In this document: positions 14,027 to 57,761 of the stretch, piece by piece
Numbering within the stretch: position 1 is the first letter of the stretch
Layout: every line of letters starts with the position of its first letter
Assembly (NCBI GenBank): GCA_025786725.1
Contig: JAHLTZ010000009.1
Coordinates: 186,001 to 250,000, forward strand
Length of the DNA: 64,000 bases
Source of the DNA: Syncephalis fuscata
Lineage: Eukaryota > Zoopagomycota > Zoopagomycetes > Zoopagales > Piptocephalidaceae
Direction: 5' to 3'
Program-made: the position numbers and the translations under genes
Notes under the pieces: model-generated
The model's input: only the letters and a program-made list of their open reading frames with translations
Databases searched by the model: none
What the model was told of the DNA's origin: nothing

Positions 14027-15636
14027 ATGCCTTTACCGAACGCTAGTAGTAAATCATCACCATCGGCCACAGCACCCGCGCCATTGACGGGTGGTGGCAA
14101 TAGTAATAGCACTAATAATGGCCAATCACGCATTGCTTATCTTCAGTCCTACGGTAATACCGTACGTACAAATAAACCGCCGTCGCTTATTGTACGGTGG
14201 TGGCGCCAATTCCTATGGTCCTTTGTTCGGCCATCCATGCATGGCGGCCGTAATCGCGTCTTGTGTGGAGGTCGTGTGGTAACCGGCCGCGACACATGGG
14301 CCTTTCTAGTCGCCCAGGTTCTGCTAATTGCTCCTTGTGTTCTATTCGCAATTTTCATGTGAGTAACAAAATAACAACGGAGGGTGTTGCCAATGTGCGT
14401 GCTGTATAATGGCTATTCAAACGGCAAGGGGCACATACATGTTTTAGATGCAGACAAATGTGCTCATATATACACACGTACTGACACATTATTATACATA
14501 GATGTCCTTATTTATGGTATGATGTGCAGCCGGCAGCAGCGATCGTATTCGGCTATTTATTTCTAGTCTGTCTCGCTTCAATGTACTACACATCGTTTAC
14601 TGATCCGGGTGTAAGTTTATGTACCATACGCACACATAAAACTAATTACAGGCCATTGGATAATTTAGATTATACCTCGCAATCTAGATCCTTATCCAAA
14701 TACTTCATCTACTGCACCACGCGATGACGCGGCGATTATTAATGCCAACGACGATCCATACGCGCCACCAGCCACTGCTCCTGTACCGAAAGAAACTGTG
14801 GTCAATGGCGTAACAGTACCGCTAAAATACTGCAGTACTTGTAAAATCTATCGACCACCGCGAGCTAGCCATTGCCGACAGTGCGACAATTGTGTTGGTA
14901 GGTGGCCATTAATTTAATGTCATTTTTACTAATGTATCACCTAATAGAGGATGAGGATCATCATTGTGTTTGGCTAAATAACTGTGTAGGACGGCGCAAT
15001 TATCGATCATTTTTCACGTTTATCTGGTCCGGTTCACTACTTTGTATTTATGTTACAGTATTCAGCATTCTTCACATGTTACATGAGTATAGTCGCGAAG
15101 ATGCTGGCATACGTGTGAATTCAGAGTTTATTGATGTTATTCGACGCTATCCAGTCAGATATCCTTTTACATGCAATTATGAGCTATTATTGATCTAAAA
15201 ACATCCTTAACTCGCTAACTGTGATGTGCTTACCTTGCTGCTAATGATTTATTGCTTCATCTTTCTTTGGAGTCTAGGCAGTCTTGCTTTGTATCACGCC
15301 TGGCTTGTAAGTCGTAATATCACTACACACGAACAGGTAGGCTACTGGTGTTATTAGTGTCAGTATAGAACTACTGAATACTAATGTATCTTAGATTCGA
15401 CGAACTACGGTTGAGCGAGATGAGCGTCGTCCCAACCCGTTTGATAGTGGTAGTATTCATAAAAATTGCATGACTGTATTGTGCCGACCACGTATATCAC
15501 CGTAAGTGTATAGCACCGAATAAAACACTTTATTTATATTAATTATCTTTTAAACAGTCATATTAATTGGCGTAACCAGTATATGCAACAAGATCAATCA
15601 CAGCAGGCACCGCCACGAGTAGTTGCTACTGTTTGA
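14027..15636 (+). CDS. ERF2: Protein S-palmitoyltransferase Erf2 (DHHC family)
   Basis: Catalytic subunit of the Erf2-Erf4 Ras palmitoyltransferase, in ER/Golgi membrane. Four membrane segments surround a cysteine-rich domain. TM1/2 appear as [20 protein letters not shown] and [20 protein letters not shown], then the family motif [14 protein letters not shown]. The zinc/DHHC domain reads [18 protein letters not shown], then [22 protein letters not shown] is intact. TM3 is [16 protein letters not shown] and TM4 [20 protein letters not shown]. The cytosolic tail has NITTHEQIRRTT and [17 protein letters not shown], as in Erf2. The join [14 protein letters not shown] before TM4 requires removal of an AT-AC intron (15159-15233); every other intron is GT-AG. 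The start is ATG 14027, the first ATG of the open frame. Confidence 0.92.
15159..15233 (+). other. U12-type AT-AC intron in ERF2
   Basis: A 75 nt intron starting ATATCCTTTT (exact U12 donor motif) and ending TTAC. The branch motif TCCTTAAC lies at 15204-15211, 23 nt from the end, slightly farther than usual. The upstream exon ends in phase 2 (CCA GTC AG) and resumes C TTG CTG CTA ATG, giving V-S-L-L-L-M and the expected TM4. No GT-AG pairing in this interval keeps both frame and TM4. Confidence 0.88.
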
Positions 15637-53979: not shown

Positions 53980-56900
53980 ATGTCGCGACACCGCAATATA
54001 CGCAATCTTGCCACAGAAGGTAGTTTGATACTTATTATCTAAAAGCGTATACACTCAATACCTAAGCGAATTAATAGATTATGGCGATGATGCCTATGAC
54101 GAAGAATATGGAGATGACTATGAAGGAATCCCAGAGCTTAACGATGAGCAAGAAGGTATAGAACTACTTGTAATGATTAATGCAGTCATGAAATTAACGG
54201 TAAATCAATAGAGGACATGCAACTAGGAACTGTGCAAGTACGCTCGCTGTTGGGCGACGAGATATCAATTACCGATGAAAAGATTCGCGAAACACTTTGG
54301 TATTATTACTTTGACATAAATCAAACTGTTGACTGGTTACTACGTAAGTTAAAAGTAAAACATATGAAATGAATCAATATTAATAAATAATATGTTAATA
54401 ATATATATATATATATATATTAGAAGAACAAATAAAAGCCAAAAAACAATCAATTGCTACAACTACAACAACAAAGTCAAAAAATACATCGGGTAAGTTT
54501 ATTTAATATGAATAGATGGAAAACAATAAGCGCAAAAGTAAAAAGGGGAGCGTATGAATATGAAAATATATAAATATAAATATTTGTGTGTGGTACTGGG
54601 TGTCTGACGGCTCAGTCGTAGGAGATGCCGCGATGGCGGTTTCGAGCGTTGATCATCATTTTGATAAAGCAGTATTGGTCACTTCAATGGCATCTACAGT
54701 GTCACCATCGACGAGGTCATTAAGCGATTTATTGAATCAAAATACGATGAAAGGAGGAATGGGCCTACGTGGATTGGCCTTGCCATCGTCGCCATCTTCC
54801 TTAAACTTGGCAGGAAATAGTTTATCAAGTCAACGTGATACTGCCGCAAAAGTCTCTTTACAGAATATTAGTAGCCATAGCAATGTTAATAGTGGTAGTG
54901 GTGTTGGTGGTTTACGGCAACTTGCTTCACTTGGTGGTGGTCAAAGTTTAAAAAGCATATCAAGTGGATCTACATCAAGTTTGGCGGCTATTGCAGCAGT
55001 AAGGGCCAATTTGTCCAACAATATCATTAAAACGCCGTCTATTTTAAATCAAGCAACTAAAAGTGATGCAGCAACAACATCTACACGGCCTATGCCCTTA
55101 TCGTTAATTAATATGGGCAAATCCACGACTACATCTTCTTCAATAGCCAATGCATTAAGCGGAACATCTTTAAAATCGTTAATGCAAAAAGACGGCAATA
55201 ATCAATTGCCTGCCATTAACGCCGCTACTACCACTACCACTTCTGCTACTGCTACTAGTGTTATGAATATAGAAAAAAATGAATGGATTGCTGCGCCTTC
55301 ATCATTTGCTTCTTTTATATTTGCAAATATTTATACTATGCACTGTCCAGTGAATGAACCATCAATGACGTCTTTACTAACATTTAATACTTTAACATCG
55401 CCAATTTCATCGATAAATGTTATAGATAAACGACAAGATAATTCACGTAAAGAAACAAAACAAGCATTGGCAGGACAACAACAGCAGCAAAAAACATTCA
55501 AGTTTGATAGTCCAAGTCCCGATGATGTTGTATTAAAGGCACAATCACAGCGTACTGGACAGAAAAGTACGTATTGCTATATTAATGTATATTAATTGGT
55601 TAATTTAATTGTAAATAATAATTAGCAAGCAAATCTAAAGAAAGTGCTCAATCCAATGATACAACACAATTTGAAATGGATATGGCCAGTCTAAATATTA
55701 ATGTGGCAAATGAAAGTGGCAATACATCGACATCTATAAAACACACACCAAAGAAAGGAAAGCTTGATGTGTTGAAGGAATTGGAGAAGCGGGAACGGCC
55801 CAATATTAATCTTATTGTTATCGGTAAGTGAAGAGTTAAAAATTATATTAATTTATTGATTTATTAATTGGCTAATATTGATAGGACATGTGGATGCGGG
55901 TAAAAGTACATTGCTAGGACATTTATTATATCTACAAGGCAACATTAATGAACACACTTATAAAAAATATCCTTGTTTATCTATTAATATTTACAATATG
56001 TATAATAATAGGATATGTTCTTAATACTAGACGATATATACAAATGAACGAGAGGCTCAAAATATTGGTAAAGGATCATTCGCACATGCTTGGGTATTGG
56101 ATGCTACAGAGGAAGAACGATCTCGGTAAGTATTACTAGATAATAGTATTGTAACAATACTAATAAATAATGTACAGTGGTATTACAATGGACGTGGCCA
56201 CAACTAGTTTAGAAACAAAGCATCGTAAATTTACTTTATTAGATGCGCCAGGCCATCGCGATTTTGTACCACGTATGATTTCAGGAGCCGCTCAAGTAAG
56301 AATGAAATGATAGATAAAGAGATATTAGCTGTATTTATCTATTCAATCTATATTCATAGGCAGATGCAGCCATTCTTGTCATTGATGCTTCTAAAGGAGG
56401 CTTTGAGGCAGGATTTGGTCAGCGAGGACAAACACGGGAGCATGTGGTGTTGGCGCGCAGTCTTGGTATTCAACAGCTAATTGTAGCTATTAATAAAATG
56501 GATACAGTAAGTTGATTGCTAACAAGTAAGCGTTATTGATGAATAATGCCATTCTATAAATACATAGGTTGATTGGTCAGCTACCCGATTCAATGAAATT
56601 AAAGAGCAGTTAAATGCTTATTTGATTCAAACGGGATTCAAGTCAAATAGCATTTCTTTTATACCGTGTAGCGGTATGAATGGTGTCAATCTATTGGATC
56701 AAGGTCGTAAGGAGCCGGGATTAGAATGGTATGCTGGTGTCACTGTTGCTGAAGCCATGGGTAAGTGGTCGTGCAATGAATGATTATAAATAATGACAGT
56801 TATTAATGTATGATTATAGATAAATTCGAATCTCCTGAACGTGCGGTAGATAAACCGTTTCGCCTACCGATAGTAGATGTATTCAAGGGATCAGTACAAG

Positions 56901-57761
56901 GAGCAGGCGGTATTTCAGTCAGTGGTAGAATTGAGAGTGGCCATGTTCAAGTGGGTGATGAAGTTATGGTTCGGCCGGGCGAAGAACTATGCGTAGTCAA
57001 AGGTAAATCGAATATATAAATATATAGATAATAATGCATCGACTAAAAATAGCATAATTAGCGATGGAAGTAGGCGATGAATTACCCGACTGGGCTGCAG
57101 CAGGAGATACAGTCACTTTAACGGTCACTGGCACTGAGATGATTCATTTTGGGTAGGCTTTAGACGAGTTTAAACTAACATTTGTGATTAATGTGATTAA
57201 TAATGTGTCGCTAGTACGGGTACTATTTTATGTTCACCTTTGACACCGGTACCTGTGGTATCTCATTTTAAAGCAAGAATTGTAGTATTTGAACCAAGTA
57301 TTCCAATTACTATCGGCTATCCGGTAAGTTTAAACAGCTAAAAAAGTTGTAGCCATCGTAACAAAGTAAATGCGTATAGACGGTACTATTCCATCATAAT
57401 TTGAATATAGCCGCCACTATTGTTAAGTTGGAAGCGGTAATCGACAAAACAACCGGAGAAGTGACTAAGAAGAATCCACGGTAAGTTGCGGAATAATTAC
57501 ACAAGCAATACTAATCTTTTATTACTTACGTATTTGCAGACATTTATCAAAGTCATCGGCTGCATTAGTAGACATTCGAACTGAAAGACCCATTTGTTTA
57601 GAGCTATTTAGCACATCAAAGGAATTAGGACGCATTACACTAAGAAAAGATGCCGATACTATTGCGGCGGGAATTGTTGTGGGTAAGTAGAAATAAATAT
57701 ATACAAATTTAGACGAATGATAATAATAACGCATTGTTTATTAATAGAGATTTTTAGTTAG
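53980..57761 (+). CDS. HBS1: Hbs1/Ski7 translational GTPase (eRF3 family)
   Basis: Partner of Dom34/Pelota in no-go and non-stop decay. The N-terminus [13 protein letters not shown] leads to an acidic HBS1 N-domain ([20 protein letters not shown], the Dom34/ribosome-binding helical region). A long Ser/Thr/Asn-rich exon (54,616-55,566) follows. The GTPase shows G1 [11 protein letters not shown]2 [14 protein letters not shown]3 [12 protein letters not shown]4 AINKMDT and G5 IPCSGMNG. Domains II/III follow ([54 protein letters not shown]), ending VVEIFS. About 14 exons. The join [18 protein letters not shown] needs removal of an AT-AC intron at 55,967-56,041. The long exon is 951 nt and symmetrical, so skipping keeps frame; with it the protein would be the Ski7-like form. 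Confidence 0.92.
54616..55566 (+). other. Possible SKI7-specific cassette exon in HBS1
   Basis: 951 nt (317 codons), phase 1 at both ends, low complexity (Ser, Thr, Asn, Ala). It carries one ordered-looking stretch, [18 protein letters not shown], resembling the PSxFA-type exosome-binding motif described for Ski7-like isoforms. Skipping would join TCG G to CA AGC without a shift. That the exon is alternative is inference. Confidence 0.5.
55967..56041 (+). other. U12-type AT-AC intron in HBS1
   Basis: A 75 nt intron starting ATATCCTTG and ending ATATAC. The branch-like GTTCTTAAT lies about 17 nt before the end. The exon ends TAT AAA AA (phase 2) and resumes A AAT GAA CGA GAG, restoring the conserved switch I region up to GITMDV. 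GT-AG alternatives in the interval leave the frame wrong or meet TGA. Confidence 0.88.

Follow-up and report, generated by a model that had tools for sequence, protein, structure and literature searches.

Does Syncephalis fuscata, a fungus of the order Zoopagales (Zoopagomycota, Zoopagomycotina), remove an intron of one of its genes with a minor (U12-type) spliceosome? The question is raised by a 75-nucleotide (nt) interval within a gene for an ERF2/ZDHHC9-type palmitoyltransferase, located in the window analyzed here, a stretch of 64,000 nt (contig JAHLTZ010000009.1, positions 186,001 to 250,000, forward strand). An original prediction, made from the DNA letters alone, had placed an AT-AC intron of the minor type at 15159..15233 of this window; its coordinates, 5' motif, branch motif and TTAC end all proved exact. 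The evidence presented below indicates that 15159-15233 is almost certainly a genuine AT-AC U12-type spliceosomal intron of the S. fuscata ERF2-like gene, which was modeled as follows.

14027..15636, + strand: ERF2/ZDHHC9-type DHHC palmitoyltransferase gene, 389 amino acids, 7 exons (gene model, PDB and Pfam matches)
14027-14358, 14502-14610, 14669-14897, 14948-15158, + strand: exons 1-4 (gene model)
15234-15336, 15395-15501, 15558-15636, + strand: exons 5-7 (gene model)
14359..14501, + strand: intron 1, GT-AG, ordinary type (gene model)
14611..14668, + strand: intron 2, GT-AG (gene model)
14898..14947, + strand: intron 3, GT-AG (gene model)
15159..15233, + strand: intron 4, assigned to the AT-AC U12 type, 75 nt, phase 2 (sequence, gene model, homology)
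15337..15394, + strand: intron 5, GT-AG (gene model)
15502..15557, + strand: intron 6, GT-AG (gene model)
15159..15168, + strand: U12-type 5' splice site ATATCCTTTT of intron 4 (predicted pairing with the U11 5' end and U6atac)
15204..15211, + strand: U12-type branch site TCCTTAAC of intron 4 (predicted pairing with U12, one A bulged)
15230..15233, + strand: 3' end TTAC of intron 4 (gene model)

The deduced protein matched human ZDHHC9 (E 2.3e-65, residues 74-385) and yeast ERF2 (6.4e-35) in PDB, and the Pfam DHHC family with 136.9 bits over residues 199-330, up to profile position 131 of 133. Five of the six introns are GT-AG and 50-143 nt long. The remaining one starts at 15159 with ATATCCTTTT, a 5' splice site of the RTATCCTT type of U12 introns, carries near its 3' end, at 15204-15211, the TTCCTTRAY-like branch motif TCCTTAAC, and couples its ends as AT-AC, one of the two pairings (AT-AC or GT-AG) seen in U12 introns.

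Removal of the interval restores the ERF2 reading frame and a conserved protein, as is required of a U12 intron. The spliced product aligned to human ZDHHC9 and to the Basidiobolus protein P0003 (PVSLVLVIYTFVFEWSLGGLTVYH) with no gap at the junction, confirming that the RRYPV exon is joined in frame and that transmembrane segment 4 (TM4) is obtained, as had been claimed; left unspliced, the frame hits a stop 13 residues past the V of RRYPV. The further claim that no GT-AG option does the same was too broad as worded, since six frame-keeping GT-AG pairs exist, three with donors at 15100-15239 and acceptors up to 15289 (15113-15277, 15126-15272 and 15126-15281) and three with donors upstream (15027-15272, 15027-15281 and 15032-15277). 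Its substance stood, as all six remove most of TM4. The last pair spans the AT-AC intron and deletes the residues flanking it.

15032..15277, + strand: GT-AG pair matching the public S. plumigaleata ERF2 junction (FIWS/GSLALYH here, FIWS/GGLALYH there)

The public ERF2 models of related fungi were compared over the same region. Three of the four Zoopagales models seen, those of S. plumigaleata (P0001), S. pseudoplumigaleata (P0241, partial) and Thamnocephalis (P0002), skip the stretch around the intron: each jumps to GGLA from NYR or at most eight residues later, and each from a different residue. Their DHHC match stops at profile position 49-61 of 133, with over half of the domain lost, whereas the AT-AC model and the Basidiobolus protein both reach position 131. 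P0001 also lacks a further conserved stretch elsewhere. No such loss is seen at the junction in Basidiobolus (P0003) or in another member of Zoopagales, Piptocephalis (P0027). Most simply, the three models lost their DHHC residues because gene callers expecting GT-AG ends bridged an AT-AC intron, and on this simplest reading the relatives would carry the same intron. If so, counts of minor introns based on annotation may be too low in Zoopagales.

The motif pair itself is far from what chance delivers. With both U12 motifs spaced 20-50 nt, the window contains one exact pair, and none of 400 dinucleotide shuffles contained any; there are two relaxed pairs, against a shuffle mean of 0.03, and 1 of the 400 shuffles had at least two. 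The 5' motif alone matched twice in the window, which is not significant (shuffle mean 1.37). Genome-wide (28.95 Mb in 299 contigs), the exact pair had 8 occurrences and the reversed pattern used as control none; for the relaxed pair the counts were 44 and 1, and ATATCCTTTT alone is frequent (190 against 124).

Nine of the 44 motif-pair places are second copies with an identical or, on contig C229, almost identical matched stretch; the copies on C262, C267, C287, C298 and C299 were assessed by their matched letters only. There were 36 distinct sequences, and 35 were analyzed, the near-identical copy L049 being left out. All 35 were searched against Pfam, L045 with two ends, and for L013, L017, L037, L058 and HBS1 the 3' end was chosen by us over the first choice of the script. 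In 17 of the 35, ERF2 and HBS1 among them, the inferred splice is spanned by a Pfam match that exceeds the curated cut-off. The other loci supported in this way are L013 (AAA), L014 (WD40), L015 (Trs85), L017 (SMC hinge), L031 (ChAPs), L032 (Spc24), L035 (peptidase M18), L037 (lipid-droplet hydrolase), L041 (Brix), L042 (eukaryotic SelB), L043 (TatD), L044 (TCP-1), L047 (S4), L057 (PPR) and L058 (GOST). The weakest of them is L047 (GT-AG, branch distance 28), which could be an ordinary intron. Among the 17, 11 are AT-AC and 6 GT-AG, the coupling of the ends being partly our own reading, and 27 of the 35 candidates start with AT. Because the selection used strict motifs and a single spacing range, the number of candidates is a lower bound and the AT-AC share only indicative.

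The other 18 candidates gave no Pfam match over the cut-off across the splice. The matches of L030 (DNA polymerase delta-like; not crossing the splice), L040 (ABC-2-like) and L045 (CCCH finger) were below the cut-off, and one candidate in L055 (TAF2) was over it with a match that does not cross the splice. No Pfam family was found for L002, L012, L016, L034, L036, L038, L039, L046, L048, L051, L052, L054, L056 and the other candidate in L055; of these, we regard L034, L046, L054 and L056 as probable chance matches.

Two side observations concern these candidates. Nine of the 35 have two locations each, on different contigs for eight of them (C14/C267, C24/C287, C46/C262, C62/C238, C85/C229, C165/C230, C233/C298 and C256/C299) and both on C2 for the ninth (219862 and 239018); retained haplotypes, redundancy among the assembly pieces or duplications may account for this. 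The peptide of L042 (C62:17477, also C238:125619) matched eukaryotic SelB domain III with 61.8 bits (cut-off 27) and thus resembles a selenocysteine elongation factor in a fungus; to our knowledge, most fungi do not use selenocysteine.

A second AT-AC intron of the window lies in an HBS1 gene.

54687..57760, + strand: part of the HBS1 gene as modeled, 13 exons, 11 GT-AG introns and 1 AT-AC intron
55967..56041, + strand: AT-AC U12-type intron in HBS1 (ATATCCTTG ... TTCTTAAT ... ATAC), 75 nt, phase 2

Spliced at 55967-56041, HBS1 fits mammalian HBS1L with no gap at the junction. An alternative 3' end 8 nt past the branch was rejected, as it leaves three extra residues relative to HBS1L that the end 17 nt away eliminates. 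The window HBS1 is 100% identical to the public S. fuscata protein over the region searched, and that protein, P0121, has exactly the 55967-56041 junction with the intron absent. An annotated AT-AC splice suggests, without proving, that P0121 had transcript support. Most of the first HBS1 exon as modeled here is missing from P0121.

If introns of this type are removed, the genome should encode the components of a minor spliceosome, as the original prediction had inferred. The small nuclear RNAs (snRNAs) and protein families were searched by profile in the genome and in a control set of 14 genomes. U11 was found with 47.5 bits (Rfam cut-off 39), its alignment showing AAAAAGG at the 5' end and a AUAAUUUUU stretch, and U6atac with 37.8 bits (cut-off 33) and AAAAGGAGAGA present. 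A U12 candidate carries AUGAGUAAGGAU, including GAGUAAGGAU, for which pairing with the branch site is possible; although it scores below the Rfam cut-off, it is strongly indicated that this locus is U12. U11/U12-specific proteins are represented by the PDCD7 family (29.2 bits against a cut-off of 27, positions 266-306 of the 306 in the profile) and the SNRNP25 family (38.1 bits, cut-off 22.8, positions 40-88 of 89). In PDB there was a weak match to PDCD7 (0.0065) and another to 1v2y (0.0069), an entry that we take to be mouse SNRNP25. In the 14 control genomes nothing exceeded the cut-off for U11, U12, U6atac, PDCD7 or SNRNP25, and a U11 search up to E 10 returned weaker matches in three of them. 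Together with the 34 other distinct candidates, 16 of them domain-supported, these genes support the view that S. fuscata has a working minor spliceosome.

Such a machinery would act on the ERF2 intron as follows: the 5' splice site ATATCCTT would be read by U11 and then by U6atac, U12 would pair with TCCTTAAC leaving the branch adenosine bulged out, and exons 4 and 5 would be joined at AG/C, restoring the serine ahead of TM4. Judged from the DNA, the interval would thus be removed by splicing, presumably with TCCTTAAC rather than the adjoining TCGCTAAC (15212-15219) as branch site. RNAduplex, run without a shuffled control, gave -6.1 kcal/mol for the ERF2 5' site with U11, -7.0 with U6atac and -10.1 for the branch site with U12, one A being bulged. 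The HBS1 values, likewise without shuffling, were weaker (U11 -4.4, U6atac -6.2, U12 -4.9 kcal/mol, the last with no bulge).

Several results weigh against a U12-type intron in a fungus with a minor spliceosome. The U12 candidate, with 34.6 bits (E 4.1e-4), is below the Rfam cut-off of 53; the PDCD7 match is confined to the profile positions given above; and the SNRNP25 match is interrupted by a single in-frame stop, explicable by an intron. A strict Sm-site pattern had no match in U11, U12 or U6atac, U11 having AUAAUUUUU followed by C. The second A of the ERF2 branch site is 23 nt from the intron end. This distance had been described as on the long side, and long it is, although it falls inside the 8-28 nt span of the 17 domain-supported introns and is a slight caveat only. 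No S. fuscata ERF2 protein was among the matches listed by two protein searches covering lengths of about 84 to 681 residues, one of them giving the best 120 of 1064, so that no public model confirms the junction; the other, aimed at a short ERF2 model from S. fuscata, listed only S. pseudoplumigaleata.

The snRNA expected by the original prediction that was not found is U4atac. No match to its Rfam model exceeded the cut-off genome-wide, the best having 21 bits (E 2.78), and a search up to E 10 gave weak matches in 11 of the 14 controls as well. The 21-bit match was not listed by a second scan at E ≤1. Three patterns complementary to the local U6atac gave nothing convincing, with counts of 0, of 5 places besides the U6atac locus (control 3) and of 4 (control 3). 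In one of these pattern searches two of the seven rows were the opposite strand of the U6atac gene itself, and the other five places, in our reading, lack the expected downstream parts or resemble protein-coding stretches. We nevertheless infer that U4atac is present. It is improbable that Zoopagales have kept a minor spliceosome with, in contrast to most species, mainly AT-AC introns, and in which U4atac is absent or unrecognisably changed and U6atac is chaperoned otherwise.

Other origins of the ERF2 interval have to be weighed against the same data. U2-type AT-AC introns exist, and CTAAC at 15215-15219, whose second A lies 15 nt short of the intron end, would suit removal by the ordinary (U2) spliceosome. 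The 5' site, however, runs on as ATCCTTTT, which is of the U12 type and not the AAGT-like end that we take as the U2 consensus; TCCTTAAC fits the U12 branch motif exactly, the motif pair exceeds its control 44 to 1 genome-wide, and matching snRNAs are indicated in the genome, all of which makes U2 splicing very unlikely. It is scarcely conceivable that the AT-AC motif is a product of chance and that the intron is really GT-AG, the way the public model of S. plumigaleata has it. Six GT-AG pairs do keep the frame, and 15032-15277 yields the S. plumigaleata junction, but each of the six costs most of TM4 or more, the public models break off less than halfway through the DHHC domain that the AT-AC and Basidiobolus models nearly complete, the three leave off at different residues, and P0001 is without another conserved stretch as well.

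Almost no credence can be given to a sequencing error or a pseudogene, with the stop and the frame break at the intron as damage. The stop 13 residues past RRYPV and the lack of an S. fuscata ERF2 protein among the matches listed would agree with it; against it, the ERF2 exons are open and conserved, the insert holds both U12 motifs in a pair that 0 of 400 shuffles contained, and in three relatives the models are broken at this position too. A further possibility, Syncephalis being a mycoparasite, is that the culture also contained a host fungus and that the minor-spliceosome genes are those of the host: the assembly has 299 contigs, and the snRNA genes are on contigs other than that of the window. 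Both AT-AC introns described here are nevertheless on the window's own contig. The U6atac, U12, U11, PDCD7 and SNRNP25 loci have a GC content of 0.36-0.38 and a tetranucleotide distance of 0.16-0.22, within the range of pieces of the window (distance 0.15-0.32), although a host of like composition would match too. A host origin is thus highly unlikely, and a U12-type intron spliced by the fungus's own machinery is preferred.

As far as seen, the S. fuscata enzyme is an ordinary member of the ERF2/ZDHHC9 palmitoyltransferases, with which it shares the DHHC domain, and one intron alone is special. A literature search returned no paper linking Syncephalis with U12 or Zoopagales with "minor intron"; U12 does not occur in PMC8476143, nor Syncephalis in the text of Larue et al. 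(2023; PMC10639083), though the data tables of the latter may include it. The record for the order Zoopagales thus seems new in the literature searched, whereas U12-type introns are already known from a few early fungi, the same phylum included. Larue et al. report 205 minor introns in Rhizophagus irregularis and 249 in Basidiobolus meristosporus, no convincing support for them in Ascomycota and Basidiomycota, and a pronounced loss inferred in the ancestor of Zoopagomycota, yet Basidiobolus is rich in them.

Compared with these systems, as far as the same source describes them, Syncephalis differs from Rhizophagus, for which all four minor snRNAs are reported, in that U4atac was not found. Its AT-AC share, 11 of 17 supported introns, with an AT start in 27 of 35 candidates picked by motif, stands against about 26% in human and 77% in Blastocystis. 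Syncephalis resembles Basidiobolus and Rhizophagus in being an early fungus with minor introns, and Basidiobolus is likewise a member of Zoopagomycota, whereas Syncephalis belongs to Zoopagomycotina and Zoopagales. Placing a minor spliceosome in Zoopagales bears on how often fungi have lost it.
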